A stretch of DNA of 64,000 nt, from NCBI RefSeq assembly GCF_027946175.1, contig NZ_AP026671.1, positions 1,054,001 through 1,118,000 on the forward strand, in the 5' to 3' direction. This document shows positions 43,961 to 62,093 of the stretch, in pieces (the stretch's first letter is position 1; every line of letters begins with the position of its first letter). Under the pieces are notes generated by a model. That model was not told the DNA's origin and did no database searches. It saw only the letters and a program-made list of their open reading frames with translations. This stretch comes from Nitratiruptor tergarcus DSM 16512 (GTDB lineage Bacteria; Campylobacterota; Campylobacteria; Campylobacterales; Nitratiruptoraceae). Made by a program: the position numbers and the translations under genes.

Positions 43961-44718
43961 CTTAAAATCGGGTCATCGGTGTAATATAAGAAAAGTGGTT
44001 CTTTTTTTGAAAGGACATAATATGAGTCTCAATCCCCTTAAAATCGGGTCATCGGTGTAATTTGAAAAAATTGTCAGCTAAAGAATTGGCTGACATTAGT
44101 CTCAATCCCCTTAAAATCGGGTCATCGGTGTAATGAAGGCTTGAAGAGGCAGATAAGCTTGCAATAGAAGTGTCTCAATCCCCTTAAAATCGGGTCATCG
44201 GTGTAATGTAGGTGCTATTTCATCAAATGTAAAAAAAGTGCTGTCTCAATCCCCTTAAAATCGGGTCATCGGTGTAATTATGATTATCGCTTCAACACTG
44301 CAATGGATGTGGCTGAGTCTCAATCCCCTTAAAATCGGGTCATCGGTGTAATATTTAGTCCAGATATAGCTAAATGGGAGGAACTATCAGGAAAGTCTCA
44401 ATCCCCTTAAAATCGGGTCATCGGTGTAATAAGTTATTAGAGGCATGTTAAGAGGCTATTATGTCTCAATCCCCTTAAAATCGGGTCATCGGTGTAATTG
44501 ATGTAGCTTTTGAAGCACATTCAGTTAAATCATTAAGTCTCAATCCCCTTAAAATCGGGTCATCGGTGTAATAGCTAAATGGGAAGAGTTAAATAGTGAA
44601 CAAAAGCTTGGTCTCAATCCCCTTAAAATCGGGTCATCGGTGTAATATAGTGAACAAAAGCTTGAAGTTAAAAAATCCTTAAGTCTCAATCCCCTTAAAA
44701 TCGGGTCATCGGTGTAAT
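43961..44718 (-). CRISPR. CRISPR array 1: 36-bp repeats, 10 full plus one truncated, 10 spacers
   Basis: Full repeats start at 44026, 44099, 44172, 44243, 44317, 44395, 44463, 44537, 44611 and 44683. A truncated repeat lies at 43961-43985. Spacers are 32-42 bases. On the minus strand the repeat ends GGGGATTGAGAC, a type III/I-B style 3' end, and the truncated repeat is at the low-coordinate side. The array is therefore read leftward, with its leader next to cas2 at 44.88 kb. The last 25 bases of the repeat are identical to those of array 2. Spacers 44573-44610 and 44647-44682 overlap by 18 bases of the same target. Confidence 0.97.
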
Positions 44719-44883: not shown

Positions 44884-45156
44884 TTACCGTATGAGAAATA
44901 TCTCTTTCAAATCATACGCAACACCCATGTATATACCATGATCTTTGATTTTGTATATTCTTACATCGTCCTCATCTGGATCAATAAGTTCGGTAAGTTT
45001 ATCAGCTATCGCATAAATCTCCTCTTTAGTTGCTTTCTTTGCAAGGAAGATAGAGTATTGGATCCTTATACATTCTTGCTCTAATAATTTTGCAATTTTG
45101 CGAAGTCTTTTTGGATTGCTAATGTCATAGCAGATCAAATAGTCACTTCTTTTCAT
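44884..45156 (-). CDS. cas2: Cas2 (distal copy of module 1)
   Basis: A 90-aa Cas2: DYLICYDISNPKRLRKIAKLLEQ (first strand with the conserved Asp in CYDI), RIQYSIFLAKKATKEE, and DDVRIYKIKDHG. Cas2 dimers bridge two Cas1 dimers in the spacer integrase. It overlaps the solo Cas1-N-like gene by 14 bases and is the last cas gene before array 1. It is a different sequence from the Cas2 at 46.2-46.5 kb. Confidence 0.95.
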   Translation of the reverse strand: MKRSDYLICYDISNPKRLRKIAKLLEQECIRIQYSIFLAKKATKEEIYAIADKLTELIDPDEDDVRIYKIKDHGIYMGVAYDLKEIFLIR

Positions 45157-45460
45157 AATTTACCACTCTTCCCACTATGTATCTACGTGCATCAATGATA
45201 TAAACTTTAAAGAATTTTGTAAGATAGAAGAGTTCGCGCAGTGATATTTCGGTATTGAGACTGAGGTAGAGTGCATAAATTTTGTTATATGAAACAATAA
45301 ATTGAGTATCTTCGATTCTGATATCCAGATATCCATCATTAGCTTTTACTTTGGCATTTGATTTAATGATGAGTTTTTTTCGATAATATCTCTCATTGTT
45401 GCGAGGGTTTGCTTTATTGCTGACTCTTGGCCTTCTATGAAAATCTTGAGATTTGTCCAT
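45143..45460 (-). CDS. solo protein resembling the Cas1 N-terminal domain
   Basis: A 105-aa protein. After an Arg-rich start (MDKSQDFHRRPRVSNKANPR), residues about 29-95 read like the Cas1 N-terminal beta domain: LSLNTEISLRELFYLTKFFKVYII aligns with LSHRTDISLKDIATIAKNDTAILI in the Cas1 next door. It has no catalytic domain. GGAAGG lies before the ATG, inside cas1; the gene overlaps cas1 by 115 bases out of frame and the next cas2 by 14. It may be an accessory subunit of the integrase. Role is inference. Confidence 0.7.
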   Translation of the reverse strand: MDKSQDFHRRPRVSNKANPRNNERYYRKKLIIKSNAKVKANDGYLDIRIEDTQFIVSYNKIYALYLSLNTEISLRELFYLTKFFKVYIIDARRYIVGRVVNYEKK

Positions 45461-46242
45461 AACTTTTTCCTTCCATTGTGCGTTAGCAGTACACTTTTCT
45501 TATTTTTAGAAAAATCCTGAATTGTAAGATGCTTATCGAGAAATTGATATGCTACAAACTTGTCAATTTCAGCTCTGAAAAACTCTAAGATATCTGAACT
45601 CAAAGCTAAATGATCTCTAAAAGAGGTATGTAAATAGCCAATAAGTGGCTCAAAACCATAAAAATGAAGCCATGTTGATATTTCAAAATAGAAGATAGTA
45701 TATACATAGGATAGCAGAGCATTTACCGGATCAAGAGGCGGATTTTTACTTCTTTGCCCTTTGGCTAAAATTTTTGGAAATAACGTAAAATAGTGTTTGA
45801 AGTACTCTTTTGCCAAACTACCCTCAATTCCTAAAAGGGTTTGAAGATCTTTTGCTTTTTGCAGTTCTTTTAAAATTTTTCCTTTTTCAAAATTGAGGTT
45901 GAAGTGCTTGAGCGTTTCGTATGATTTATGGATCTTCGCTTCAAGAATAAATTTTGCAATTTCTACTCTTTTGACAAGAGCGTGATATTGAGCCTCTTTG
46001 AGGTGCGCATTTTTGTTATATTTTTTTTGAATATGGATAAACTCTTTTGGGTTTGTAGTTACTATCAAGATTGCAGTATCATTTTTGGCAATTGTTGCAA
46101 TATCCTTGAGTGAAATATCGGTTCTATGTGAGAGTATGAGATAATCTATAGCCTTCAATGGGAGCTTCATCTCATTGTCTATTACCAAAACAGTGCTTTT
46201 TATCTCTATTGATGACGCTCTATCGATGATGACTCTATTCAT
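45346..46242 (-). CDS. cas1: Cas1 integrase of module 1
   Basis: A 298-aa Cas1 with its own N-terminal beta domain (1-75) and helical catalytic domain. The expected metal ligands are visible: E140 in LLGIEGSLAKEYF, H205 in LIGYLHTSFRD, and D217/E220 in SSDILEFFR. PPLDPVNALLSYVYTIFYFEI is a typical family block. It inserts spacers at the leader end of array 1. Its ATG overlaps the stop of the upstream cas2. Confidence 0.96.
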   Translation of the reverse strand: MNRVIIDRASSIEIKSTVLVIDNEMKLPLKAIDYLILSHRTDISLKDIATIAKNDTAILIVTTNPKEFIHIQKKYNKNAHLKEAQYHALVKRVEIAKFILEAKIHKSYETLKHFNLNFEKGKILKELQKAKDLQTLLGIEGSLAKEYFKHYFTLFPKILAKGQRSKNPPLDPVNALLSYVYTIFYFEISTWLHFYGFEPLIGYLHTSFRDHLALSSDILEFFRAEIDKFVAYQFLDKHLTIQDFSKNKKSVLLTHNGRKKLWTNLKIFIEGQESAIKQTLATMRDIIEKNSSLNQMPK

Positions 46243-46514
46243 ATAACAACTGTTCCTTTGTCAAAAGGCAACTGCTTTGCTTTGCCGAGCAAAATAGCAT
46301 CCTTTTCAACTTCAACAATATTGATTCTATCAACTTCAGCATCCATTCTCAAAAAGAGTTTTCTTATCAATTTTTCGAGATCTTTTTGTGATAGATAACT
46401 CTCCACTGCACTCTTTTGCCCGCCAAAGGCAAAAGAGTAAACTACTTTTCTTACCTTATAGAGTCGCTTTTTATCTGCTATGTCATAACAAATAAGATAG
46501 AGTTTAGTCTTCAT
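46239..46514 (-). CDS. cas2: Cas2 (proximal copy of module 1)
   Basis: A 91-aa protein: LYLICYDIADKKRLYKVRKVVYSF, SAVESYLSQKDLEKLIRKL, and DRINIVEVEKDAILLG follow the Cas2 ferredoxin-like fold, with the conserved Asp in CYDI. It overlaps the upstream lipoprotein gene by 11 bases and cas1 by 4. With the copy beyond cas1, module 1 carries two different Cas2 proteins. Confidence 0.92.
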   Translation of the reverse strand: MKTKLYLICYDIADKKRLYKVRKVVYSFAFGGQKSAVESYLSQKDLEKLIRKLFLRMDAEVDRINIVEVEKDAILLGKAKQLPFDKGTVVI

Positions 46515-47914: not shown

Positions 47915-48340
47915 TTAAATTTTAAATTGCTCTGCTTCTTTTTTGCTCATTTTGATAACAAATTCTTTGTTCTTGCCTGTTTGGGTCTCTTGAAGAGTTT
48001 TTAACATATTTTTATCCTGAAAAAATGAAAGCTTGTATCTTGTATCTTGATCTTTTTGTATCATCCCCAATATTCCCATAAGTTCGCTTCTTGTAAAATT
48101 CTTCCTCAATAGAGACAAGCCTGTATCGACCCTTTTTCCATCTATTTCAAAAATGATTTCTACGGGCTGTTCGTTTCTTATGAACTCTATAAAACCCCAG
48201 CCAGCCAAAATTGCCAAAGCAACAGCGCTTGCTGTATCCAAGATCCCATATATTTCCCACAAATAAGAATTAAGAATTTTTGCAATGATTCCGCTAATGA
48301 TTACAACTATAAATACAATAAATGGAATATATCGATTCAC
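47915..48340 (-). CDS. two-helix membrane protein coupled to csx20
   Basis: A 141-aa protein with two membrane helices (IPFIVFIVVIISGIIAKIL and ASAVALAILAGWGFIEFI) and a cytosolic C-terminal domain of about 85 residues (PVEIIFEIDGKRVDTGLSLL, then ELMGILGMIQKDQDTRYKL). I recognise no family. Its ATG overlaps the csx20 stop (4 bases), and csx20 overlaps csx1 the same way, so all three are translated together. This makes it a candidate membrane accessory protein of the type III response. Confidence 0.65.
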   Translation of the reverse strand: MNRYIPFIVFIVVIISGIIAKILNSYLWEIYGILDTASAVALAILAGWGFIEFIRNEQPVEIIFEIDGKRVDTGLSLLRKNFTRSELMGILGMIQKDQDTRYKLSFFQDKNMLKTLQETQTGKNKEFVIKMSKKEAEQFKI

Positions 48341-48717
48341 TCATATCTCCTAAATCTCACAAATTGAAACTCAGAGTATTTTGCAACTTTATCATCAATG
48401 TTTCTCTCTTTTACAATACGTTTCGTGGTAGCATAAACTGGCACTACTCCCAGCTTTTTAGCTTCATTTACAAGAATGCAACAAAGTCCAAAATCTCCTT
48501 GAATGAGAGCAAAATCTCCCTTTTTGGTATTCTCTTGCAAAAAATCGACTAGAGGCTTCGCATAATTTCTCAGACTTTCAAGATCAGGCGGCACATTGGA
48601 AAAAAGCGTTTGAAGATCTGGCGGAAGATAGACAAACTCTTCTATTCCCATCTCTTTTGCAGCTTTAATCTGTTCAGGTATCAGTTTGTGGGAAAAAAAG
48701 AGAAGTAATTTTTTCAT
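48337..48717 (-). CDS. csx20: Csx20
   Basis: A 126-aa protein of the Csx20 type: KLLLFFSHKLIPEQIKAAKEMGIEEFVYLPPDLQTLF, NVPPDLESL, and KKGDFALIQGDFGLCCILVNEAKKLGVVPVYATTKR. Csx20 proteins are type III accessories, proposed or reported to be ring nucleases that break cyclic oligoadenylate and so switch effectors off. It overlaps csx1 by 4 bases, as expected for an off-switch paired with its effector. A broken second copy is at 50.98 kb. Confidence 0.87.
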   Translation of the reverse strand: MKKLLLFFSHKLIPEQIKAAKEMGIEEFVYLPPDLQTLFSNVPPDLESLRNYAKPLVDFLQENTKKGDFALIQGDFGLCCILVNEAKKLGVVPVYATTKRIVKERNIDDKVAKYSEFQFVRFRRYE

Positions 48718-49940
48718 TTGTGATACTTTCTCTTCTTTTTTTCCAGTTCATTTAAAAGAAATAGCTTGAAATTACTTTTATCTATAATAGGAGCTTCTTG
48801 TAAAACTTTATTTGCTTGATTGATATAATTTTGAAGGTGTTCAATGCTTTTCTTTAGACTTTTTTTACCACCTTTTTCTCCAATGAATGCGTGATTGGCC
48901 AAATTCCTCAAATCTTTAATTTGTTCAACAAGCTTGATAAACTCTTTTTTAAAAAAATGCTGCTGATATTTCAATATGTATCCTATTGATGAATCAATAT
49001 CTCGGATTTTATAACCTTGTTCCAATAAATTAAGTTCTTCAATAATGTAATAATGAAGCGTTTCACGTAAAATAGTAAGAGCCTGAGCATATCTGTTTTT
49101 ATGAAACAATACATCAGATAGTATAAGATAGAGTTGCCACTTTGGTAAATTGAAATCAAAGTTTTTAGTTTCTTTTTTCAATTCATCGATTATAAATGAA
49201 AACGATTTTATATCATTAGGTACATTTTCAACTTTTTCTAATTTCTCTTCAATTTCTTTAATTGTTTCTAAATAGATATCAGCAGCGGCAAAACCGACGC
49301 TTTTTGTATAGATATCAAATTTATTCGCCAATGAACTGATTGGATGATATTCTTCATCTCCTTTATGTTCTCTTATTTTTTTAGAAATCAATTGAGCTAT
49401 TTCTCTGCCATCGCCATATTTTTTAAAAATATTTGCAGACTCTATCCATTGATTAAGTTCGATAAATGGAAGCATATTGACAATAGGTGTTATATTTTCC
49501 TCTTTGGCTTCAAATATACCGTAATACACTCCCTTTACTTCAGCATTTTTGAAATTTTTAAAAAATTGCAATATAGTAGATATAAAAAGAGGCAAGGAGC
49601 GAAATCCATGAGTAATATCGAAATATATTTCACTATTATCAACATCTAAACTTGTTAAAACTTCAAATATTTTCCAAAACTCTTCACTGTTTTTTCCAAA
49701 TGGGATAATTACCTTTTCATAATCTTTTATATATTCATCAGCCAAATTCCACAAGGATTCTACAGTTCCTACAATAAAAATTTTGTCAGGATTATATAAT
49801 CTCCTTAAAGCATCACCGACCAATTTACTTTGAATTATCTTGTCTTCTATTTTATAGGATGTCAAACTATAATTATATTTTTGGTTTTCTTTTTGATATT
49901 GCCCTTTTCCAAGTATACTGATAAGTATTTTCTCTTTCAT
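48714..49940 (-). CDS. csx1: Csx1-type CARF-HEPN ribonuclease
   Basis: A 408-aa effector. The N-terminal CARF domain shows the DxTHG signature (D108, T110, H111, G112 in YFDITHGFRSLPLF). The C-terminal HEPN domain has the catalytic R345-x4-H350 (DLRNLANHAF). When Cas10 makes cyclic oligoadenylate after target RNA binding, Csx1-type proteins cleave RNA without sequence choice. It has its own promoter upstream and is coupled to csx20. Confidence 0.92.
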   Translation of the reverse strand: MKEKILISILGKGQYQKENQKYNYSLTSYKIEDKIIQSKLVGDALRRLYNPDKIFIVGTVESLWNLADEYIKDYEKVIIPFGKNSEEFWKIFEVLTSLDVDNSEIYFDITHGFRSLPLFISTILQFFKNFKNAEVKGVYYGIFEAKEENITPIVNMLPFIELNQWIESANIFKKYGDGREIAQLISKKIREHKGDEEYHPISSLANKFDIYTKSVGFAAADIYLETIKEIEEKLEKVENVPNDIKSFSFIIDELKKETKNFDFNLPKWQLYLILSDVLFHKNRYAQALTILRETLHYYIIEELNLLEQGYKIRDIDSSIGYILKYQQHFFKKEFIKLVEQIKDLRNLANHAFIGEKGGKKSLKKSIEHLQNYINQANKVLQEAPIIDKSNFKLFLLNELEKKKRKYHK

Positions 49941-50743: not shown

Positions 50744-50978
50744 CTATTTCAAATGGTCATCAATTTTTTCCAAAACTATTTTATTGTCTTTTTCGTTACA
50801 ATAGACTCTTCTACTATCATCTCCATCAAATGGATAAAATTCATGAGAATTTTTTTTAAAATTTTCCTTCTATTTGTTGTCTCTGTGGGAGATAAACAAA
50901 ATCCCTTATTCCTTTTTCTTTGATTACTTTAATCTGCTCGGGCACTAGTTTGTAGGAGAAAAAGAGGAGTTTTTTCAT
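50744..50978 (-). pseudogene. csx20: broken second csx20
   Basis: From ATG 50978 a 40-codon frame reads KKLLFFSYKLVPEQIKVIKE and KGIRDFVYLPQRQQIEGKF, clearly like the start of Csx20 at 48.7 kb, then stops at 50856. Just beyond a run of eight A, another frame continues SHEFYPFDGDDSRRVYCNE and EKDNKIVLEKIDDHLK to 50744. The second part does not match the end of Csx20, so this is a decayed or fused gene. It starts 5 bases after the CARF-RelE-like gene. Confidence 0.75.
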
Positions 50979-50983
50979 AATTG

Positions 50984-52105
50984 TTAAATTTTAAAAAGTT
51001 CTACTTGTTTTAAAAATTCATCTTTTATTATTCGCTTTTTTTCTTCATTTAAATATTTTATATATTTATCATGATCTTCAAAAGTTTTATAAATATAAAA
51101 ATTATTATCATTAACAAAATAGAAAATTCTATACGGATTATCTCCATTATCATATACATAGTGACCATTTTTTAATTCAGTTTTATTTTGATAGTTCCAC
51201 TGAAATTTGTTTTTAAGAATATCTATTATGTGTGGTTGTTTTTTAATCTCATTATAAATATCGTCAGTAGTATAAAAAATAAAATTTTCTCTTTTATACT
51301 TATCCCATAAAATTTTTCCAAGAGGATTTAATGCAACAATATCCTCTTCTATTTCTAATAAATTTTTACATTTTTTAAGATATTGATAATTTAATTCACT
51401 TTTATTTAACAATAAATTTGCGTCAATGATACAAAACTCTTTCCAATACTTATCAAAAAGTTTTTCATCAATACTAATTGGAATTTGTGGAATTTCTATT
51501 AGTGCATCAGTAAACTCAAATATATAAAAAATTGGTATTTTATTAACCTGTCCAAATATTGTCATATAAGGAATCACACCTTTAAATCCACCAGTTACAT
51601 TAAGCACCATATCTCCAAAATATTCTCCATTTGAACCTATTTGATTTAATCTATTAAGAAGATTAATCAAACCTTTTTTATATCTCTTATAATCTGCAAC
51701 TTGCAGATCTTTAATAATATTTTTCTCATCAAAATTGACTCTATAATTACTATTTTTCTCAATTAGCTCTTTTAATATTTCGCTACATAAAGGAGATAAT
51801 ATAGAGTCTGTAGCAATAAGTTCAATATCAATTGAAAAATTTTTAAATTTTTCATTTTTTTGTATAGCAATAAGACTTTTTATTTCTGCTGAAGTTTTTT
51901 CATCAAAAGTAATATTTTCTTTTATAAAATCTTTTAATGCATTAAACTCTTTAGAAAAAGATTCTTTTTCCCTATAGTCCTTCTTAAAAAGTTTAGAAAA
52001 ATTCTCAAGAGCTTCTTTTTCACTTTGTATTAAATTACATTTATTTCTCAAAGGGTTAATAATATTAGTTACCAAAGATGTCCCTACAGTAGTAACTATT
52101 TTCAT
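50984..52105 (-). CDS. CARF effector with a RelE-like C-terminal domain
   Basis: A 373-aa protein. The N-terminal about 205 residues look like a CARF domain of the APE2256/Csm6-like group (MKIVTTVGTSLVTNII; NVTGGFKGVIPYMTIFGQ). The C-terminal part, about 285-360, ends with NPYRIFYFVNDNNFYIYKTF, a RelE/HigB-type toxin pattern; no HEPN R-x4-6-H motif is seen. It is likely a cyclic-oligoadenylate-controlled ribonuclease or translation blocker. It overlaps csm5 by 4 bases. The RelE call is by eye. Confidence 0.75.
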   Translation of the reverse strand: MKIVTTVGTSLVTNIINPLRNKCNLIQSEKEALENFSKLFKKDYREKESFSKEFNALKDFIKENITFDEKTSAEIKSLIAIQKNEKFKNFSIDIELIATDSILSPLCSEILKELIEKNSNYRVNFDEKNIIKDLQVADYKRYKKGLINLLNRLNQIGSNGEYFGDMVLNVTGGFKGVIPYMTIFGQVNKIPIFYIFEFTDALIEIPQIPISIDEKLFDKYWKEFCIIDANLLLNKSELNYQYLKKCKNLLEIEEDIVALNPLGKILWDKYKRENFIFYTTDDIYNEIKKQPHIIDILKNKFQWNYQNKTELKNGHYVYDNGDNPYRIFYFVNDNNFYIYKTFEDHDKYIKYLNEEKKRIIKDEFLKQVELFKI

Positions 52106-53085
52106 GGTTTTATCTCCAACTTAGTCCATCCTAATTGATTTTTATCCTCATCACACCAAGTTGAAAGTTGATAAGCAAAATCTTTTTTTACTTTCTTACC
52201 TTTTTTATCTTTTACATCAACTTTTATTTTTCTTTTGTTCTCTATTGTTTTGGCACCAGCACCTGAATGTTTACCAATTTTGATTAAATATTCTTCATAT
52301 TCTGGTATCTTTATACCTTGCCACCACTCTCTTTTTCTCTCAAAACTGTTTATTTTTTGATAATAATCTTTTAAACAAGTTTTGATAAATTCAAAATCAA
52401 AATTTTCCGGTACGTGTGAAATCTTTTTTAATAAATTTTCATTTATATTTATTGTTCCTTCAAATTCTCCATTTTTTACCACTTCTAATATTACTGGTAT
52501 TAATTGAAAATCTTCTTTTCCTTTATTGAAAGGTTGAATTATATTTTTCTCAACATTAACAGGTTTTAAATCACTAATGCTTAAAACTTTTAAAAAGTCT
52601 TTTGTAGCATCAAATTTATCTTGATTACAAAAAATTTGAGCCATAAATTTATTTTCATTTTGAATATCTTTTAAATCTTCATACTTTTGATTAAAAATAT
52701 AGTTTGCAACTGCTGTTCTTATTGCTCCCTTAATACTACTTCCGGGAATATATACTTTTTTATAAACATCTTTAATAAATTGATTAATCGGTGCTCTAAT
52801 ATCTCCCCTTTTTGATAAATACTCTTTTGCATTTGGTTTAAGTTTAATCTCTTCTAAAAATTCTTTTGCATTTTTTCTATAGAAACTAACAATTTTTTGT
52901 GAATTTTCGCTAATTTCTAAAAAATTTTGATAAAGTTTTTCATCACTTAACACTCTTTTATTAAACTCTATATCATTAATAATTTTAACACTATTATTTG
53001 TAATTAGATAATCATAAGGCCAATAATCTTCCCCACTACCAATATGAATAGGAGTTTTAACTATCAATCTTATTTTAGCTTGCAT
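52102..53085 (-). CDS. csm5: Csm5 (RAMP subunit)
   Basis: A 327-aa Cas7-like RAMP protein starting MQAKIRLIVKTPIHIGSGE, with VYIPGSSIKGAIRTAVANYIF, the family glycine loop. It caps the 3' end of the crRNA in the type III-A complex. TTGGAG lies before the ATG at 53085, preferred over the TTG at 53097. It overlaps csm4 by 11 bases. Confidence 0.93.
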   Translation of the reverse strand: MQAKIRLIVKTPIHIGSGEDYWPYDYLITNNSVKIINDIEFNKRVLSDEKLYQNFLEISENSQKIVSFYRKNAKEFLEEIKLKPNAKEYLSKRGDIRAPINQFIKDVYKKVYIPGSSIKGAIRTAVANYIFNQKYEDLKDIQNENKFMAQIFCNQDKFDATKDFLKVLSISDLKPVNVEKNIIQPFNKGKEDFQLIPVILEVVKNGEFEGTININENLLKKISHVPENFDFEFIKTCLKDYYQKINSFERKREWWQGIKIPEYEEYLIKIGKHSGAGAKTIENKRKIKVDVKDKKGKKVKKDFAYQLSTWCDEDKNQLGWTKLEIKP

Positions 53086-54001
53086 CTTTGACTCCAAAAT
53101 AGATTCCTATTGAATAACCACTATGAAAATAGCCTTTTTTATTAAAAACCTCTTCTTTAGCTGTTCCATAAACTTCATTAAACTCTTTTATCAAAAAACT
53201 TGTTCCAGGTAAAAACATAATTACAGGATTTTTAAATGGATGATGACTTGCTAAATAACCCCCACTTTTTGGAAATTTGGTGATTTTTTTACCAAAAGAA
53301 AGTTGAAGTTTTTTATCTTTAAACATTGTAGAGAGATTTAAATAAAAATTTCTATTTTCTTTTGGTTTAAAAAACTTTTTCTCTTCAAAATCTTCAAAGA
53401 TTTCAATTCCAAATTTTCCTTTACCGCTACTTTTATCCTTTCCATATCCTCTCATTCCAATAAATTCAAATACTTCTTTAATTTCTTCTAATGAAATTTG
53501 CCCTTCATCAAACTTTGCATAAATCTCTATTGCAAAATTTTCTATATAAAAAATCTCATTAATTGCATAAAGTCCTTTTGACGTTCGATTAAATCTTCTA
53601 TCAATTGAGTTTTTTAAAGTAAGAGTAGTTTTTTTATCTTTTTCATATTTGAATTGTTCCTCTTTAAATTTTTTAAAAATTACTTTATCCGTTAAATTAT
53701 CAATATTTTTAAATATCCAATTTTTAGGGATAAAATTTGTTTTTTTATATTTTTTATTTAAATCCATAAAATTTGGCGGAATCAGATAAGAAGATAAAAA
53801 AGGTTTTGGTAATTTTCCTTTATCAAAACCATCACTAAAAACTATAAAAGGCTTTGATTGAAAATTTTTTAATAGTTCTTTTAACTTACCCTCACCATAC
53901 TTATAAACTACTCCCCAAGCAAAATGACCAAATATTGTATCACTTTGCAATGGAGTAATAAAAGGTGTTTTAAGTTTCAAAACAATCTTAATTATTTTCA
54001 T
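53075..54001 (-). CDS. csm4: Csm4 (Cas5-like RAMP subunit)
   Basis: A 308-aa protein starting MKIIKIVLKLKTPFITPLQSDTIFGHFAW, with GMRGYGKDKSSGKGKFGIEIFE as the second glycine-rich loop. It binds the 5' handle of the crRNA and joins Cas10. It overlaps csm3 by 14 bases. Confidence 0.93.
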   Translation of the reverse strand: MKIIKIVLKLKTPFITPLQSDTIFGHFAWGVVYKYGEGKLKELLKNFQSKPFIVFSDGFDKGKLPKPFLSSYLIPPNFMDLNKKYKKTNFIPKNWIFKNIDNLTDKVIFKKFKEEQFKYEKDKKTTLTLKNSIDRRFNRTSKGLYAINEIFYIENFAIEIYAKFDEGQISLEEIKEVFEFIGMRGYGKDKSSGKGKFGIEIFEDFEEKKFFKPKENRNFYLNLSTMFKDKKLQLSFGKKITKFPKSGGYLASHHPFKNPVIMFLPGTSFLIKEFNEVYGTAKEEVFNKKGYFHSGYSIGIYFGVKDAS

Positions 54002-54764
54002 TGCCCAAACCTAACTCTTTTTCAATTTCTTTAATATCTATTAATTTTTTATTATCTAAAAATTTTTCATCAATCCCTTCAATATCAAAAAACTCTACTT
54101 TTCCATATCCTCTACTACTATTTCCACCAAGTGCAGTAAGTTCCAAAAGTTTCATTCCAAGAGCTAAATAATTAAAATTATTTTTATCATCTTCATTAAA
54201 TACCATATAAGTTAAATAAAACTCAAATTCAGCTCCAGCTGGCACTCTTTCAATCTGTCTTAATCCACCCCTTCTAACAGTTCCACTAAACCTGTCTATA
54301 ATAATCTCATATTTAGATTCAGTTAATGCATTAACGCTCATTAGCTGTTCTTTACTCTCTTTTGTTAAATAACAATCATAAAAACTCACTTTTGTCGGAC
54401 CTATATCTTTTGCAATGTCTTCATTTTTAATAGTTGCACCATTTCCAAATATTTTAGCGATTATTTTAAAATTTTTTAATTTTTTATCATCTTCATAAAT
54501 CCATTTATCATCTTTTTTATCTTCAGTTGGTTTATTCACTTTTGTTGGTGAGCCATCTACAATAGTGCCAAGTCTCCATTCAAGCAAAGTTCTCATTTTT
54601 CCTTTTATACTACTTCCTGGGATATATGGTTCATTTGTAATTGGATTTTTAATTACTGGCGTATCTATTCCACCTATTTTAATTTCATCATTACCTGCAC
54701 CAATATGAAGCCCAGTTAATACTTTTATTTTTCCACTAATTTGTTTAATCTCTTGTAGTTTCAT
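53988..54764 (-). CDS. csm3: Csm3 (Cas7-like backbone, target-RNA nuclease)
   Basis: A 258-aa protein: LTGLHIGAGNDEIKIGGIDTPVIKNP contains D34, the position of the catalytic Asp that cuts target RNA every 6 bases in known Csm complexes. YIPGSSIKGKMRTLLEWRLG and LGGNSSRGYGKVEF are family loops. The active site is intact, so RNA slicing is expected. Confidence 0.95.
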   Translation of the reverse strand: MKLQEIKQISGKIKVLTGLHIGAGNDEIKIGGIDTPVIKNPITNEPYIPGSSIKGKMRTLLEWRLGTIVDGSPTKVNKPTEDKKDDKWIYEDDKKLKNFKIIAKIFGNGATIKNEDIAKDIGPTKVSFYDCYLTKESKEQLMSVNALTESKYEIIIDRFSGTVRRGGLRQIERVPAGAEFEFYLTYMVFNEDDKNNFNYLALGMKLLELTALGGNSSRGYGKVEFFDIEGIDEKFLDNKKLIDIKEIEKELGLGNENN

Positions 54765-54776
54765 TTTCCATCCTTT

Positions 54777-55298
54777 TTAGTTTTCATTAATTACACCTTT
54801 TGCATATGCAATAACTGCTTCAAATAAAGAAACAAAAATTGTAAATTTTTCCAACGATTTTTCTAAATCTTTATCATACCCCTCTACTATGTAATCAATG
54901 TTTTTATCAATGAATCTTTTAAAATTTGTATTCATATTTTTCTTTTGATAGGCAATATTTGCTTTAGCTTTTTCCATCTTTATAAGAGGTAAAAGTTCTC
55001 TAAATTTTTGTAACTTTTTTTCTTTATAACTTATAGAGTTTATTTGAATCTGATAATTTAAAATCTCATTATAAAATTTTCTCATCTGATTTATAGAAAT
55101 CTTTCTTTTATTACTTTGATCATCATAAGTAAGATACTTGATACATTTAAAAACAATTTTTTCTGCTATATCACTAAATAAATCTACTTTAATTTTCCCA
55201 TCAACATCAAAATAATTTACTTCCCATTCAAAATCCCCACATTTCATTTTTTTATCCTTTTTTTCTATTGCTTTTTTTATTTTTTCAAGTCCTTCCAT
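54777..55298 (-). CDS. csm2: Csm2 (small subunit)
   Basis: A 173-aa helical protein: IVFKCIKYLTYDDQSNKRKISINQMRKFYNEIL and LPLIKMEKAKANIAYQKKNM match Csm2. The first about 30 residues are an extra polar part. Csm2 lines the target-RNA groove and marks the system as III-A. It begins 2 bases after the cas10 stop. Confidence 0.9.
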   Translation of the reverse strand: MEGLEKIKKAIEKKDKKMKCGDFEWEVNYFDVDGKIKVDLFSDIAEKIVFKCIKYLTYDDQSNKRKISINQMRKFYNEILNYQIQINSISYKEKKLQKFRELLPLIKMEKAKANIAYQKKNMNTNFKRFIDKNIDYIVEGYDKDLEKSLEKFTIFVSLFEAVIAYAKGVINEN

Positions 55299-55300
55299 CT

Positions 55301-57754
55301 TTAATCCTTTTTATATTTTCTCTTAGAATAGAGGTATAAATTTAGTGGAATTTTTAACTTCTCGCCCCACTTTTCTATCCAATCTGCAATTTGCAAAGCT
55401 TCATTCCATTTTCTTTCTTGCTCTAATTTATTCTTATCTTTTACACTATTTTTTAAATAATAATTAAATAAGGCTTTCCAACGTGCATTTTCTATTAAAA
55501 CTTGAGAATTTACATTTTGCATATTTTGCAAAAAAATTAATGTTTGTTGCATATCGATGAAAGTATAAACTTTATATAAAAAACTCTCACTTAAATAATC
55601 CATTTTTTTAAACTCATCCTCTAATGCATAAAGCTCTAAAACTTCCTCATTACTTACTTTTATTCCAAAAATTACAGAATTATTTTTATTAAAATCTTTT
55701 GCTTTATTTAAATCCTCTTCTGCAAACTCTGCCATTTGCATTATTGGAACATTAGCAGATATGAATTTAATTGCATAACTTAGATGAAAGTCACTATTTT
55801 GTGTGAACTTTTTAAAATCTATTATAAGTTCTTTATGCAAAGCAATAATCTCTTCATAATGGCCAATTAAAAAAAGATCATCTCCACCAGCAAATACGGT
55901 ATAAATATTTTTATATTCTTCTTTTTCTTCTTTAATCTTCTTTTTCAAAATTGAAGTAAAATAGAAATCTGTAAATCTTGATAAACTCATTATTCTTGAA
56001 AATGTAGCTTCATCAAAAATTTTTTCATTTTTTACTCTTTTAATTGGAATATAATCATTTTTTTCATTTTTTCCTTTTTTAAACCCATATATAAAAATTT
56101 GCCCCAAATTATCCACATCAGCCTTTAAAATAGCCAAATATTTTCGTCCATAAAATCCATCATCTTCTTCTTTTAATCCCTCTACAGCTATATGATAAAA
56201 GCTTTTTACATCTCCTTTTTTTAATCTTTCATCAAACTTTTCTTCAATAAGTTTATATCTTTTATCATTTTCATCTTCTATCAAAGGGACATAATTAGCA
56301 ACTCTTTTATATGCAAAATTATCATTTTCATCCATAGAAAAATAGATTAGATTATGATTTTGTATATCATTTACAAAATCAAATGCATCTATTAGATCTT
56401 TTGATAAATCTATTTGAATATATTTTTTCTTCGTAAATTTTTCACCTATTTCTTTAAATTTTTTACAAAACTTACAAATATAAATATCATCTATTTTTTC
56501 AGTTGTTGGCACAATTCCACATATATCACATTTTTCTTTACTTTTAAACTCTTCTATATAGTCTTCAAAAACTTCTATATTACTATCAAATTTTAGTTTT
56601 TCTTCTTCAAAAGATTTTGCTAAATTCCAAAATACACAAGAAGCATTATAAGGTCTATTTTGACAATGTAAATTCTTTTCTTTTTCAAATATTTTATTAT
56701 TATATTGCAAATGCTCATATTTTTCTTCTATAAAAGTAAGTGCAAATTTTGTTTGCAAATAATTTATAGTAGCAAACTGCTTATTTATTTCATCTTTTAT
56801 ATACTCAATAAATTCATCAAAAGTAAATTCTTTATTATTAACTTTTACCTTCTCATATTTTGGTGCGATAATAGTGAATTTTCCTCCAGCACTTAATACA
56901 ATATTTGTAGGAGGTATTTGAAGTAATTTACATATTTTAAGTGCAATATATTCTGTTGAAAGTGATACAAAAAGCGATTTTGCTCTTAATATTTTTGCTA
57001 AAAATTTATTACTTTCTCCAAATTTAGAAAAAATAAAACTCTGAATTGAAGTAAAATCACCTTGTATAAGATAAAATTTATCTTTATTTGTTTTCAATGC
57101 AACACTTAAAGCAGAGGTTAAAAGTAAATGATCAAACAGTGATACATCTGGATAAGATCTGTAGCTTGAAGAAGGTATAAAGGTTGTATATTTCTCAAGT
57201 AATGACTTAATTTTTAAAAACTCTAAAAAATTATCTTCTTTATTAAAGTTCAATTGCAAATTTTCGGCATCTTTTTTAAAATCATTATAAAGTCGTTGAT
57301 ATTTTTCTTGTGCTTGACTATCTTCTTTTTCTCTATTTGGATAAGCAATATTAGAAGTAAATTTTTGCACAGGAAAGAAAAACTCTTCATTTTCATTACA
57401 TAAAGCTACTTCACTAAAAATTGACATTAACTTAGTCTTTTTAAAATTGGAGCTTTCTCCTTCTTTTCTTTCAGCACTTGCATATCTATCTGCAAGTTGA
57501 ATTATTTTTTTATCATCATTTAAATTATTTTCATGATGAGATGATGCAATCTCAACTAGATTCTCAATGCCAACTAATCCCATCTCTTCAATAGCTTTGC
57601 TCGTATGAGCCGCATGAATATATGAGCATTTTTGTTCATTACATAAAGCAAAAGTCATATCATGATCATCTAAATCCTTTTTACCTGTTCTTTGTCTAAA
57701 CTTCCCAATATCATGTAAAAGTCCCGCAAGTGCAATTAAATCAACATCTCTCAT
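55301..57754 (-). CDS. cas10: Cas10/Csm1 with HD nuclease and GGDD cyclase
   Basis: An 817-aa large subunit. The N-terminal HD nuclease is intact (H14-D15 in LAGLLHDIGKFRQ; HAAHTSKAI; ASSHHEN). There is a zinc-binding middle (CDICG and CKFC), and the palm cyclase motif GGDD at 623-626 (TVFAGGDDLFLIG). After target RNA binding it cuts ssDNA and makes cyclic oligoadenylates that switch on the CARF effectors downstream. It overlaps cas6 by 4 bases. Confidence 0.97.
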   Translation of the reverse strand: MRDVDLIALAGLLHDIGKFRQRTGKKDLDDHDMTFALCNEQKCSYIHAAHTSKAIEEMGLVGIENLVEIASSHHENNLNDDKKIIQLADRYASAERKEGESSNFKKTKLMSIFSEVALCNENEEFFFPVQKFTSNIAYPNREKEDSQAQEKYQRLYNDFKKDAENLQLNFNKEDNFLEFLKIKSLLEKYTTFIPSSSYRSYPDVSLFDHLLLTSALSVALKTNKDKFYLIQGDFTSIQSFIFSKFGESNKFLAKILRAKSLFVSLSTEYIALKICKLLQIPPTNIVLSAGGKFTIIAPKYEKVKVNNKEFTFDEFIEYIKDEINKQFATINYLQTKFALTFIEEKYEHLQYNNKIFEKEKNLHCQNRPYNASCVFWNLAKSFEEEKLKFDSNIEVFEDYIEEFKSKEKCDICGIVPTTEKIDDIYICKFCKKFKEIGEKFTKKKYIQIDLSKDLIDAFDFVNDIQNHNLIYFSMDENDNFAYKRVANYVPLIEDENDKRYKLIEEKFDERLKKGDVKSFYHIAVEGLKEEDDGFYGRKYLAILKADVDNLGQIFIYGFKKGKNEKNDYIPIKRVKNEKIFDEATFSRIMSLSRFTDFYFTSILKKKIKEEKEEYKNIYTVFAGGDDLFLIGHYEEIIALHKELIIDFKKFTQNSDFHLSYAIKFISANVPIMQMAEFAEEDLNKAKDFNKNNSVIFGIKVSNEEVLELYALEDEFKKMDYLSESFLYKVYTFIDMQQTLIFLQNMQNVNSQVLIENARWKALFNYYLKNSVKDKNKLEQERKWNEALQIADWIEKWGEKLKIPLNLYLYSKRKYKKD

Positions 57755-58566
57755 CTCACATCCTCTACTTCAATTTTCCCTAGTCCAAATGTCCCAAGCT
57801 TCCCCACTCCTACAATCTCACCATATTTTAAAAATTCATACGTTTGTCTATCAAGTCCATCAACAACCATTTCTCCTACTATGCCTCCAATTTTCATTTT
57901 TGTTTTTTGTCTATTGGAATATCTTGCAAAATCAACAAATCTCAAATCTTTTTTTATTACTTCTGGAAAATTTTCTATCTTTTCATCAATTCCATCAAAA
58001 AAGAGCCTCTTTTTATAAATTGAAACTAAAATATCCTTTATATCAAGCTCACTAAGTCGCAAAAATTTTCCCTCCCTCTTTAATCTAAGAGGCGTTACAA
58101 ATCTTATCTTTACTTTTGGACAAAATTCGTCGCATTTAAAATTTTTTGGCTCTGTTTTTATACTCTTAAACTCATTTTCAAACACAACCTCACTACCTAG
58201 ATAAATCTTTTCTATCTCATATTTTTTTCTATTTGCCCCAAGTCCTTTTTGCGTTAGCATCCTATAAAGAGCACTTAATACATACGGATACTTTTGACAC
58301 GCTTCATTAAAAAGATACAAGGAAAAATCAAGTTTTTTTGGCTTTAGTGTAAAATCGAATCTAAACTTGTGAAATCTATTTTTCTCTTCATAAAACTCAT
58401 AATAAAGACAATTCTCTTTTGCAAAGCAGGTTGAACATTCAAAAGAGGGATTTATGCAGACTACATCTTTGAGATTCACTCCAAAAGCACCACGTAGCAT
58501 GGAGCCTATAAAGGGAGGTAATTGTGCAAAATCTTTTGATACTACATCTATTTTAAAATAGTTCAA
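57751..58566 (-). CDS. cas6: Cas6 crRNA-processing endoribonuclease
   Basis: A 271-aa RAMP protein with four cysteines near the N-terminus (CSTCFAKENC, with VVCINPSF before) and the C-terminal glycine-rich loop KYGEIVGVGKLGTFGLGKIEV. It should cut both arrays' repeats, which share their 3' part, leaving an 8-nt 5' handle. It is the first gene of the operon; the start is TTG behind AAAGG, and it is divergent from cas2/RT-cas1. Confidence 0.9.
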   Translation of the reverse strand: MNYFKIDVVSKDFAQLPPFIGSMLRGAFGVNLKDVVCINPSFECSTCFAKENCLYYEFYEEKNRFHKFRFDFTLKPKKLDFSLYLFNEACQKYPYVLSALYRMLTQKGLGANRKKYEIEKIYLGSEVVFENEFKSIKTEPKNFKCDEFCPKVKIRFVTPLRLKREGKFLRLSELDIKDILVSIYKKRLFFDGIDEKIENFPEVIKKDLRFVDFARYSNRQKTKMKIGGIVGEMVVDGLDRQTYEFLKYGEIVGVGKLGTFGLGKIEVEDVR

Positions 58567-58631: not shown

Positions 58632-58904
58632 ATGAATACCCTTATAATGTATGATATAAGCTGTGACAAAAAAAGAAACAAAGTTGAAAAGCTCCTCTCT
58701 TCATATGGTTATAGGGTCAACTATTCTGTCTTTGAAATTTCAGTGCCAAAGCATCAATTCAAAAAACTTCTTCAAAACCTAATAAAACTAACTTCCAAAG
58801 AGGATAATGTAAGAGTCTATATCCTCACAAAAGAGGTATTAAAAAAATCTTTCAAACTCCACTCAAATGAAGGGATCTTTACAGATGAAGAGCTATATTT
58901 TTAA
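58632..58904 (+). CDS. cas2: Cas2 partner of the RT-Cas1 fusion
   Basis: A 90-aa Cas2: NTLIMYDISCDKKRNKVEKLLSSYG, VNYSVFEISVPKHQFKKLLQNL, and DNVRVYILTKE. Its end overlaps the RT-Cas1 start. It differs from both Cas2 proteins of module 1. It is divergent from cas6, with a 65-base promoter region between. Confidence 0.95.
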   Translation: MNTLIMYDISCDKKRNKVEKLLSSYGYRVNYSVFEISVPKHQFKKLLQNLIKLTSKEDNVRVYILTKEVLKKSFKLHSNEGIFTDEELYF

Positions 58905-61020
58905 TAAAACTTTTGAAGATATTTTCACAAAAGAGCGAATTGCATATGAGGCAAAAAGAGCCGGATTTGATATACCATATAAAAACTTTTTTAATTTTGC
59001 ACCGCACAAAAGTTTTTTTATTCCAAAAAACTCAAATGGAATGCGCCAGATTTCAGTTCCAGATACAAAAGCCAAAATCATTCAAAAAATCCTGCATGAT
59101 GAACTCACTTCTGTTTTGAGATTTAGTGACAGAAACTATGCATACCAAAAAAATAAATCGCCTCTTAAAGCCATCAATAGAGTTAAACATATTATAAAAA
59201 ATTACGAATTCATACTCAAAGCCGATATTAAAGATTTTTTCGACAGTATTGATCACGATAGACTCCTTGCTAAACTTTCAAAGATTATCAAAGATCCTAA
59301 AATCATATATCTCATCGCTCTTTTCCTCAAAAATGGCTCACTATTTCATAATCAATGGATTGACAAAACTGAAGGAGTTTATCAAGGTGATGTTTTAAGC
59401 CCGCTACTATCCAATATTTATTTGCACAAGTTTGATATGAAACTCGAAAATGAAAATATAGAGTTTGTCCGTTTTGCTGATGATATGATCTTTTTTGCCA
59501 ATCCCTACAAAGAAACTAAAAAGATTTTAAATTTCATAAATCAACTATTACAACAAGAAAAACTCTCTTTACATCCTGATAAACTCTATATTACCCATAA
59601 AAACAAACCTTTTGAATATTTAGGAGTACTTTTTGACATCCCTACTAACAGCTACTCCATAGAAAATGAAAGACTTATGAGCAAAATCTCCACCATCTCA
59701 AAAGAGACAAAAAATCTTGACCTCGATCAAACTATTAAAAAACTTAATGAACATATTGAAGGATTTTTAAACTATTATGCAAAGATAATCAACAATACAA
59801 ATCAATTGGAACTTCTGCAAAAAAGAGCCGATGAGATCATCATAGCAAAAATCATAGAGGCAAAACAGAATAAAACCATAACACGCAAAAGCGATTTTTT
59901 GCAAAAACTATCTTCTCTTCTTGCCTATACAAAAACCTCTCCTATAAATTTGGTAAATCATGCATACGAACAACTCAGACTCAAAAGTCCAAAAAAAGCA
60001 GCGTATAAAACTATTGAACAAAAAAAGAGGGACTTTTTCAAAAATAGTCTTAAAACTACAGAACTCATCATCTCAAAACCAGGAACCTATCTCTCTTTCT
60101 CGCAGGGAAAAATTTCTATCAAAACCCACGATGCACCCATCAAAAGAATCCCGTTCAAAAAACTTCGCCGTATCATTATCCTTACAACAAGAAGCTCTCT
60201 TTCTACATATCTCATCAAAAAATGCGCCGAAGAAAAAATAGATATAGATTTCATTGCAGAAAATGAACCATACGCTCTTCTCACATATCATAAAACAATA
60301 GCTAAAGAACTTCATATCAAGCAGCTTAAACTCATCTTATCCCCAAAAGGTTTACATTACACCAAAAATCTTTATTATGCAAAAGCAAAAAATCAAAGGA
60401 ATTTGTTAAAATATTTCAATATAAGAAGAAAAAATGAAAGTTTGCAAAAATATATTGAAAAAATCACTCTTCTTATTCCCAAAATCAAAAATGCAAAAGA
60501 TAGCAAAACCATTATGGGCATAGAAGCACAGATTAGTCAACTCTACTGGAATGGCTTTAAACTTATTACCAATTTACCATATTTCCAGCGAACTCACAAA
60601 GATTCCAAAGATCCAATAAATCAAGCTCTAAATTATGGCTATGCAATACTCTATAACAGAATCCAAGCAGCTCTTATCAAAGAAGGATTAAATATCTATT
60701 ACTCTTTTTTACACGTCACAGATTACCGCAAGCCTACACTGGTTTTTGATATGATAGAGCCTTTCCGTCAACCTATAGTAGATCGAGAAATCATCTCAAT
60801 AATCACCAAAAACCAAACAATAAAACAAAAAGATGGTAGGCTTACTTCAAATTCACTCAAACTCATTATCCAAAATATCCAGGAGCGTCTTGCATCATTC
60901 ACCAAAACAAAATTTGGCAAAACCACCTATCTCAATCTCATCTATTTTGAAGCTAATGCGCTCAAAAAAGCAATAGAAAATGAAGATCCAAACCATACAT
61001 TTTTTATAGCAAAATATTAA
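58885..61020 (+). CDS. reverse transcriptase-Cas1 fusion
   Basis: A 711-aa protein (717 aa if the ATG at 58867 is used; numbers here follow the longer form). RT domain, about 60-300: KADIKDFFDSID with D120, QGDVLSPLLSNIYLHKFD, FADD with D205-D206, and EYLGVLFD, close to group II intron RTs. Cas1 domain, about 395-717: E553 in MGIEAQISQLYW, H616 in YYSFLHVTDYR, and D628/E631 in LVFDMIEPFRQP. There is no Cas6 domain at the N-terminus. Known RT-Cas1 proteins take spacers from RNA as well as DNA; all catalytic residues appear intact. It lies next to array 2. Confidence 0.97.
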   Translation: MKSYIFNKTFEDIFTKERIAYEAKRAGFDIPYKNFFNFAPHKSFFIPKNSNGMRQISVPDTKAKIIQKILHDELTSVLRFSDRNYAYQKNKSPLKAINRVKHIIKNYEFILKADIKDFFDSIDHDRLLAKLSKIIKDPKIIYLIALFLKNGSLFHNQWIDKTEGVYQGDVLSPLLSNIYLHKFDMKLENENIEFVRFADDMIFFANPYKETKKILNFINQLLQQEKLSLHPDKLYITHKNKPFEYLGVLFDIPTNSYSIENERLMSKISTISKETKNLDLDQTIKKLNEHIEGFLNYYAKIINNTNQLELLQKRADEIIIAKIIEAKQNKTITRKSDFLQKLSSLLAYTKTSPINLVNHAYEQLRLKSPKKAAYKTIEQKKRDFFKNSLKTTELIISKPGTYLSFSQGKISIKTHDAPIKRIPFKKLRRIIILTTRSSLSTYLIKKCAEEKIDIDFIAENEPYALLTYHKTIAKELHIKQLKLILSPKGLHYTKNLYYAKAKNQRNLLKYFNIRRKNESLQKYIEKITLLIPKIKNAKDSKTIMGIEAQISQLYWNGFKLITNLPYFQRTHKDSKDPINQALNYGYAILYNRIQAALIKEGLNIYYSFLHVTDYRKPTLVFDMIEPFRQPIVDREIISIITKNQTIKQKDGRLTSNSLKLIIQNIQERLASFTKTKFGKTTYLNLIYFEANALKKAIENEDPNHTFFIAKY

Positions 61021-61411
61021 AAACAATATTAGAACTTTTTTCATAATCATAAGATAAGATTGAAAGCAAAAATTACCATTTTATGGAATTATTACTTTTT
61101 CTGATAGTTCTGATTTCAGGGATTATTAAGTATTCATCAGCAGATGTTAGAACTTTTAGCTAATTTTAAGTTTAAAAAGCCTTATTTTATGGGCTATATT
61201 ATTTGCAGACTTCTAACATCACATTTTCACAATAATTTTTTTTCAATGTTAGAACTTTTTTAAAGTCAAAAATCCCTTATTTTAGGGGCTTTAAGTTAAA
61301 ATTAAGCAATTTTTACATATGATATCTTAATAGATGTTAGTATTTTTTGGATATTTGAAAACTCGCTTGTTTTAAAAAGGTAAGTTTTTAAAAAGTCTCG
61401 TTATTTGGGTT
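61021..61411 (+). promoter_or_regulatory. leader of array 2 with TGTTAGAACTTTT direct repeats
   Basis: About 390 AT-rich bases without a gene between RT-cas1 and array 2. TGTTAGAACTTTT occurs near 61145 and 61247, related forms near 61030 and 61333, and an inverted form (ACTTCTAACATC) near 61210, so about every 60-100 bases. Two copies are followed by small hairpins around TTATTTTA (GCC..GGGC and CCC..GGGG). These are likely integration or transcription signals of the array. Confidence 0.6.
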
Positions 61412-61989
61412 ATTTACCTATTAGACCCGATTTTAAGGGGATTGAGACAGAAAGAGTCTCTAAGAGACTCTTTTCTCTCACCTTTACCCTCTATTTACCT
61501 ATTAGACCCGATTTTAAGGGGATTGAGACATTTGAAAAGCCCTTTAATGTCGGGCTTTACTAATTCACTATTTACCTATTAGACCCGATTTTAAGGGGAT
61601 TGAGACTTTAAAAAGAATAACACTGCTTCGCCTCTCATTTTTACTATTTACCTATTAGACCCGATTTTAAGGGGATTGAGACACTTTACTTCCATGTCCC
61701 GGGTAAGGTTCCCAACTAAAATAAATTTACCTATTAGACCCGATTTTAAGGGGATTGAGACTTAATTTTAATATTGTAGTCGGTGATGTACAAATTTATT
61801 GTCATTTACCTATTAGACCCGATTTTAAGGGGATTGAGACTCAAAACCCGCAACCTTAACATCTCCGTAAATCTCATTAAGATTTACCTATTAGACCCGA
61901 TTTTAAGGGGATTGAGACCTTCGCTAAAATCGTTCCCGTAAGAGGGGGCTTTGGCGTATTTACCTATTAGACCCGATTTTAAGGGGATT
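61412..61989 (+). CRISPR. CRISPR array 2: 37-bp repeats, 7 full plus one truncated, 7 spacers
   Basis: Repeats start at 61412, 61493, 61570, 61646, 61725, 61804, 61882 and 61958. The last loses its final GAGAC at 61989. Spacers are 39-44 bases. The repeat starts ATTTACCTATTA and shares its last 25 bases, ending GGGGATTGAGAC, with array 1. It is read rightward, away from RT-cas1. A detached piece of repeat (CCTATTAGACCCGATT) lies at 62094-62109, beyond an inserted structured repeat, so the array was once longer or was split. Confidence 0.97.
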
Positions 61990-62093
61990 TTTTTTCGGTA
62001 ACCGGGCGTAGGCTATGGTCGCTACGCTCCCATAAACGCTCGCCGTGCGAGCCTGAAAAAGCCAAGCAGTTGGCTTTTTCTTTACGGCTCTCC
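61990..62093. repeat. two-hairpin structured repeat, copy D, inside the end of array 2
   Basis: Sits exactly between the truncated repeat ending at 61989 and the repeat fragment starting at 62094. The first hairpin pairs GCGTAGGCTATGG with CCATAAACGC; a smaller hairpin GCTCG/CGAGC follows. The second is AAAAAGCCAA-GCAG-TTGGCTTTTT at about 62055-62080, with the same AAGCAGTT loop region as copies A and B. Confidence 0.65.

Follow-up and report, generated by a model that had tools for sequence, protein, structure and literature searches.

The window, the whole 64,000-nt stretch of DNA analysed here from the deep-sea vent bacterium Nitratiruptor tergarcus DSM 16512, carries a reverse transcriptase-Cas1 (RT-Cas1) adaptation module with its own array on the plus strand, and type III-A effector genes, ancillary genes and a second, RT-less adaptation module on the minus strand. 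The features are as follows.

58632 to 58904, plus strand: cas2 of the RT-Cas1 module, 90 aa (Pfam CRISPR_Cas2, 64.6 bits)
58867 to 61020, plus strand: RT-Cas1 fusion, 717 aa (likelier start 58885)
61021 to 61411, plus strand: leader of array 2, 391 nt with repeated sites (from an alignment of 19 leaders)
61412 to 61994, plus strand: array 2, 8 repeats of 37 nt and 7 spacers of 39-44 nt
57751 to 58566, minus strand: stand-alone cas6 (Pfam, 44 bits; PADLOC Cas6)
55301 to 57754, minus strand: cas10/csm1 with HD and palm domains (TIGR02578, 469.8 bits)
52102 to 55298, minus strand: csm2, csm3, csm4 and csm5 (PADLOC)
50984 to 52105, minus strand: ancillary nuclease of the CARF-RelE type, Csm6-like (PADLOC CARF_RelE, 315 bits)
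47915 to 49940, minus strand: ancillary genes csx1, csx20 and csx23 (NCBIfam TIGR02221 and CAS_Csx20; PADLOC Csx23)
same minus-strand stretch as the csm and csx genes: a PIN/antitoxin pair and a WYL regulator
44884 to 46514, minus strand: second, RT-less adaptation module (cas2, cas1, a 105-aa ORF, cas2)
44026 to 44718, minus strand: array 1, 10 repeats of 36 nt

The first-pass annotation had placed an RT-Cas1 gene here with its own cas2 and its own array in a type III-A locus, and this layout was confirmed: cas2 overlaps the start of RT-cas1, array 2 lies beyond the leader, and Cas10/Csm1 and csm2-csm5 are all present, which makes the effector type III-A. The repeat of array 2 ends in ATTGAGAC at its 3' end, with the last of the eight copies degenerate, and it has the 3' half GACCCGATTTTAAGGGGATTGAGAC in common with the repeat of array 1. 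The genome (1,905,901 + 34,983 bases) holds two Cas1s besides RT-Cas1 and three arrays of related repeat. I-B and III-A systems have been reported for the N. tergarcus strain (PMC9723563), in a text from which the words Cas1 and reverse transcriptase are absent.

The protein has an RT domain with a catalytic Asp triad fused N-terminal to Cas1, the arrangement that defines an RT-Cas1 fusion, and is divided as follows (717-aa numbering).

residues ~43-257: RT palm and fingers
residues 258-398: thumb-like linker with the GIIM match
residues 399-717: Cas1

Every residue named from the letters alone was found where it had been put: D120 falls in LKADIKDFFDS, QGDVLSPLLSN occupies residues 173-183 and FADD residues 203-206, and E553, H616, D628 and E631 are all present in the Cas1 domain. 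The second Met, at 58885, is the likelier start, giving 711 aa, because a Shine-Dalgarno-like AAGGGA stretch lies just upstream; this start would lower every residue number by 6. Pfam matches were found to RVT_1 (124 bits), to Cas_Cas1 (205 bits) and to the group II intron maturase family GIIM (25 bits, over its cut-off), the last being weaker in two Nitratiruptor relatives and in one Bacteroidota protein. Because only ~42 residues precede the RT, there is no fused N-terminal Cas6 domain, as had been noted at the outset, and cas6 is a gene of its own on the other strand. The best solved match was the Thiomicrospira Cas6-RT-Cas1 (7kft), which covers both domains. The Thiomicrospira protein (PMC8102632) likewise has FADD and a Cas2 partner, and its RT and Cas1 catalytic residues align with those of the window protein (E553, H616 and D628 on the Cas1 side, with the H and D motif retained in relatives). 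The window protein differs from 7kft in having no Cas6 domain, and the region between RT palm and Cas1 is ~75-80 residues longer than in Thiomicrospira in the phmmer alignment and includes the GIIM thumb match. An AlphaFold model built from two sequences reached a pLDDT of 40 and was structurally uninformative.

A search of 397 Campylobacterota genomes at E <= 1e-30 gave relatives in 26, a few of which are RT-less or partial, and the named ones are located on Arcobacter plasmids. The combination of RT-Cas1, Cas2, leader and array, often with cas6 and csm genes adjoining, recurs in ~20 loci and on the A. cloacae plasmid pACLO. In trees of both the RT and the Cas1 domain, with the named Arcobacter plasmid RT-Cas1s standing in for clade-2A reference sequences, the window forms part of a Campylobacterota group, in which its neighbours are two other Nitratiruptor genomes. 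The RT tree places this group (support 91/96) as sister to the Bacteroidota RT-Cas1s (98/94 for the two together), with the cyanobacterial ones standing apart; the main groups of the Cas1 tree match, as expected of co-evolving domains, and the other two Cas1s of the genome are unrelated to RT-Cas1. The same topology has been published for clades 2A and 2B, and that paper (PMC6013744, Toro et al. 2018) describes clade 2A for Epsilonproteobacteria, including Caminibacter mediatlanticus, as Cas6-less RT-Cas1 fusions that have a Bacteroidota sister group and occur with type III systems. On this phylogenetic evidence, the RT-Cas1 of the window is assigned to RT-CRISPR clade 2A, a line already known from its phylum.

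The first-pass annotation had gone further, arguing from the FADD box and the absence of a Cas6 fusion, both of which are real features of the protein, that the module should be a separate functional line. The analysis did not support this. Eight of the aligned RTs have FADD, and they are dispersed over the tree in a way that calls for at least six FADD/YADD changes; the next-nearest relative (a Nitratiruptor protein, 64% identity, G009) has YADD. The Thiomicrospira Cas6-RT-Cas1 carries FADD and makes cDNA (PMC8102632), and RT-Cas1 without Cas6 is the commonest architecture, with 76 of the 110 records catalogued in PMC5541045. FADD was accordingly discarded as a marker of a distinct line on the strength of the RT tree and 7kft, and we consider a line defined in this way barely credible.

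Among individual systems, the type III-A locus of A. cloacae pACLO (NZ_CP053834) resembles the window in cas6, cas10, csm2-5, RT, cas1, cas2, array and leader sites and also in carrying a TM1812-family CARF gene, but its RT-Cas1 lies in two frames and its cas2 follows cas1. The order seen in the window, with cas2 ahead of RT-cas1, is shared by the nearest kin (Nitratiruptor, L004 and L067), whereas cas2 comes after RT-cas1 in most clade-2A relatives. Marinomonas mediterranea likewise combines RT-Cas1 and Cas2 with a type III effector and acquires spacers from RNA and DNA, but its protein (PMC11014452) has an N-terminal Cas6 and is described as Cas1-fused without a canonical thumb.

In the 391-bp leader of array 2 a ~13-bp site occurs six times, with four copies direct and two inverted.

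61027 to 61039, plus strand: site I1, TATTAGAACTTTT
61106 to 61114, minus strand: site I1', inverted and degenerate, AGTTCTGAT on the plus strand, aligned with AAGTTCGCAAA of relatives
61145 to 61157, plus strand: site I2, TGTTAGAACTTTT
61206 to 61220, minus strand: site I2', inverted, TTCTAACATC on the plus strand
61247 to 61259, plus strand: site I3, TGTTAGAACTTTT
61335 to 61347, plus strand: site I4, degenerate in the window, TGTTAGTATTTTT, and intact in Nitratiruptor strain YY09-18

When 19 leaders were aligned, the same arrangement was seen. The site consensus is ATTTGCGAACTTTT for the majority of families, whereas one other family has ATTTTCGAACTTTT and Nitratiruptor has GTTAGAACTTTT. 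The conserved element spans ~390-450 bp and recurs in clade-2A relatives throughout the phylum, including RT-less ones. Among the 17 leaders with readable I2 to I4, the I2-I3 interval is 113-115 bp in 14 and 102-103 bp in the three from Nitratiruptor, the I3-I4 interval is 96-98 bp in 12 and 87-88 bp in five, and the distance from I4 to the first repeat falls into classes of 70-72, 80-86 or 94-96 bp; the leader of the RT-less G258 has spacings of 96, 113 and 98. Because these classes lie ~10-12 bp apart, we infer that the sites are phased to about one helical turn, as read off the distances themselves rather than from a formal periodicity test.

The exact two-site pattern occurred in 15 of 397 genomes, and a reversed control pattern in none of the 397. 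Twelve of the 15 carry the Cas1 lineage of the window's RT-Cas1 (hypergeometric p ~1e-13); of the other three, in G042 and G031 the sites precede arrays or array remnants of the same repeat type, and in G272 they adjoin a cas6 and a degenerate repeat. Within the retrieved loci, the exact site was confined to array leaders except in L073, where the non-leader copies form a second cluster of identical spacing. The leaders of the strain's own arrays 1 and 3 and of its I-B array showed no such sites. Further away, three of the readable cyanobacterial RT-associated leaders carry three copies, ordered inverted, direct, direct, and repeated sites scored above shuffles in two of three Bacteroidota leaders. 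Of five control leaders from unrelated plasmids or megaplasmids, one, that of Herpetosiphon, also had three repeated sites; such sites in a leader are therefore not peculiar to RT-Cas1. The excess over shuffles in single leaders was modest (p mostly 0.016-0.05, 60 shuffles), and one RT-fused and two RT-less leaders did not differ significantly from shuffles; judged from these comparisons, the signal rests on conservation across leaders, not on single-leader statistics.

The conserved, spaced sites suggest that the Cas1-Cas2 module integrates at a platform assembled on the leader DNA. The motifs of type I-E and I-F leaders, which are bound by IHF and Cas1-Cas2 and fold the leader for integration, likewise lie upstream of the first repeat (PMC12259127); that work concerns IHF and a 200-bp fragment, whereas the window has six related sites of different sequence over about 320 bp. 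Phased leader motifs are not a new idea in themselves. What is new is the evenly spaced, widely conserved set of sites, and the RT-Cas1 interpretation is mostly known already: in the portion of the literature covered, no description of repeated sites or iterons of this arrangement in CRISPR leaders was found, and the clade-2A account in PMC6013744, in the portion available, makes no mention of the leader sites present in the window. The wider proposal, to which we give even odds, is that clade-2 RT-Cas1 leaders in general would form a large nucleoprotein platform of ordered sites dedicated to their integrase lineage and reduced in some cyanobacterial RT-Cas1 arrays. Such a platform would have the order direct, inverted, direct, inverted, direct, direct, with a site sequence that drifts by lineage and a spacing kept in steps of about one helical turn, and it would be bigger than the leaders of the E. 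coli or Pseudomonas systems.

The sites might instead be operators through which a transcriptional regulator, such as the WYL protein, controls the array or the cas genes. Regulators typically have several direct and inverted sites, and many of the loci have a WYL gene nearby; the confinement of the exact site to leaders in the retrieved loci, with the extra copies of L073 forming a second cluster of the same spacing, and the fixed intervals that reach as far as the first repeat and cover about 300 bp speak against operators, which we regard as a rather unlikely reading while taking it seriously. That the leader encodes a structured RNA for the RT, in the manner of a retron, seems very improbable: pairing between inverted copies is conceivable and several sites are followed by small hairpins, but RNAalifold returned just a weak 8-bp pairing of two inverted sites (-2.6 kcal/mol), and RT-less relatives retain the leader. 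The same retention argues that the leader serves integration rather than reverse transcription, in keeping with the integration platform.

Whether the RT itself is in use was approached through selection, RT loss and the spacers. Between the window and YY09-18, omega was 0.10 for the RT (215 codons), 0.08 for motifs 3-5 and 0.075 for Cas1, values that are approximate with dS above 1 (1.4 for the RT, near saturation). Because the RT domain is under purifying selection, it is probably used. RT-less or frameshifted relatives nevertheless exist (G258, G285, G200, A. cloacae, G025 and G094), so that the RT is dispensable in some lineages. In G094 (L045), G025 (L048) and A. cloacae (L058) the RT frame is broken independently and the Cas1 frame is intact; three further clade-2A relatives are RT-less, and the RT part has thus been lost repeatedly.

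The spacers of array 2 differ wholly between the window and YY09-18 and the leader and repeat are conserved, which indicates turnover since the two strains split. The seven spacers had no match in phages, in the strain's own genome or in 22 family genomes, nor did seven exact 20-mers taken from them in IMG/VR, and the large arrays of four relatives gave no convincing phage match. Three of the seven spacers fold better than shuffles. Over 277 spacers of RT arrays the mean folding z was -0.47, on both strands, close to the -0.38 of the strain's own array 3, and hairpins or terminators in spacers were therefore rejected as a discriminator of RNA origin. A spacer of the third array matches phage NrS-4 at the target listed for DSM16512C4_s18 in PMC9723563. 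Acquisition from RNA by the array-2 module, which the first-pass annotation had proposed, would follow by analogy with the family.

The RT could be a passenger, with integration from DNA only and the domain retained for folding or for Cas2 or RNA binding, making no spacer cDNA. This would fit the RT-less or frameshifted clade-2A relatives that retain Cas1, Cas2, leader and array, and it would fit the collections searched, in which no RNA-derived spacer could be demonstrated. It sits poorly with the RT motifs retained in the intact relatives examined, with the omega of ~0.08-0.10 in the catalytic region and with the use of RNA by characterised family members (PMC11014452); we hold a passenger RT to be unlikely.

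Taken jointly, these data favour, with a probability of roughly 80%, a module in which a clade-2A RT-Cas1 with Cas2 feeds array 2 from DNA and RNA and the leader acts as a docking or bending platform. RT-Cas1 and Cas2 would assemble as a hexameric integrase, which would join fragments of DNA, and of RNA or RNA/cDNA, to the leader-proximal end of array 2, and the role of the RT would be to tail RNA prespacers or to copy them, as its counterparts do in M. mediterranea and Thiomicrospira; the RT and integration chemistry is here taken over from those characterised relatives (PMC11014452, PMC8102632). A leader-bound factor, or the integrase itself, may bend or mark the DNA by way of the repeated sites, and the leader may in this way direct the Cas1 lineage of RT-Cas1 to its own array. 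Transcripts from the related arrays would be cut by Cas6 to crRNAs that all bear the 8-nt tag AUUGAGAC, and Csm would use these crRNAs to locate its target transcripts, the Cas6/Csm effector being shared by the arrays.

We know of no biochemical tests of the clade-2A RT-Cas1 lineage. Nitratiruptor is a cultivable host genus (37-55 C) that bears such a protein; since the genome also encodes two further Cas1s and has three arrays with related repeats, a single strain could reveal how integrases pair with arrays and whether spacers come from RNA. The conserved leader offers a concrete, mutable target for how RT-Cas1 chooses its array.

Several further features of the locus were observed. The csm/cas10 cassette (50867-57698, 24-26% G+C) has no nucleotide similarity to that of YY09-18, whereas the sequences on both sides of it align at 82-88%, a pattern suggestive of a wholesale exchange of the effector genes, with the adaptation and ancillary genes around them conserved. 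In YY09-18 (L065:8479-11649), cas10 and cas6 each lie in several broken frames and cas2 and RT-cas1 are intact; the breaks could be sequencing error or real decay. At 48337-49940, csx20 and csx1 are 98% and 94% identical to those of YY09-18 (dS 0.07-0.12), against 80-86% (dS 0.6-1.4) for their neighbours, a contrast that marks this stretch as a recent recombination tract. A degenerate copy of the start of csx20, 72% identical over 96 nt, adjoins the CARF-RelE gene at 50887-50982.

In the second module (44884-46514), cas1 is flanked by a cas2 on each side and all four genes are conserved in YY09-18; the 105-aa ORF (62% identical there) had no family match in profile searches. The third array (G000:C1:928283-929722, L084), with 20 repeats of related sequence, lies ~168 kb from array 1, and the homology between its leader and the array-1 leader makes it probable that it belongs with the RT-less module. 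In array 1, spacers 1 and 2 have an 18-nt overlap in source sequence and spacers 2 and 5 have CCCATTTAGCT in common, overlaps that we read as one gene family having been sampled more than once. Several array-1 spacers are, by eye, open as protein on the reverse strand, so that their crRNAs would be antisense to mRNA.
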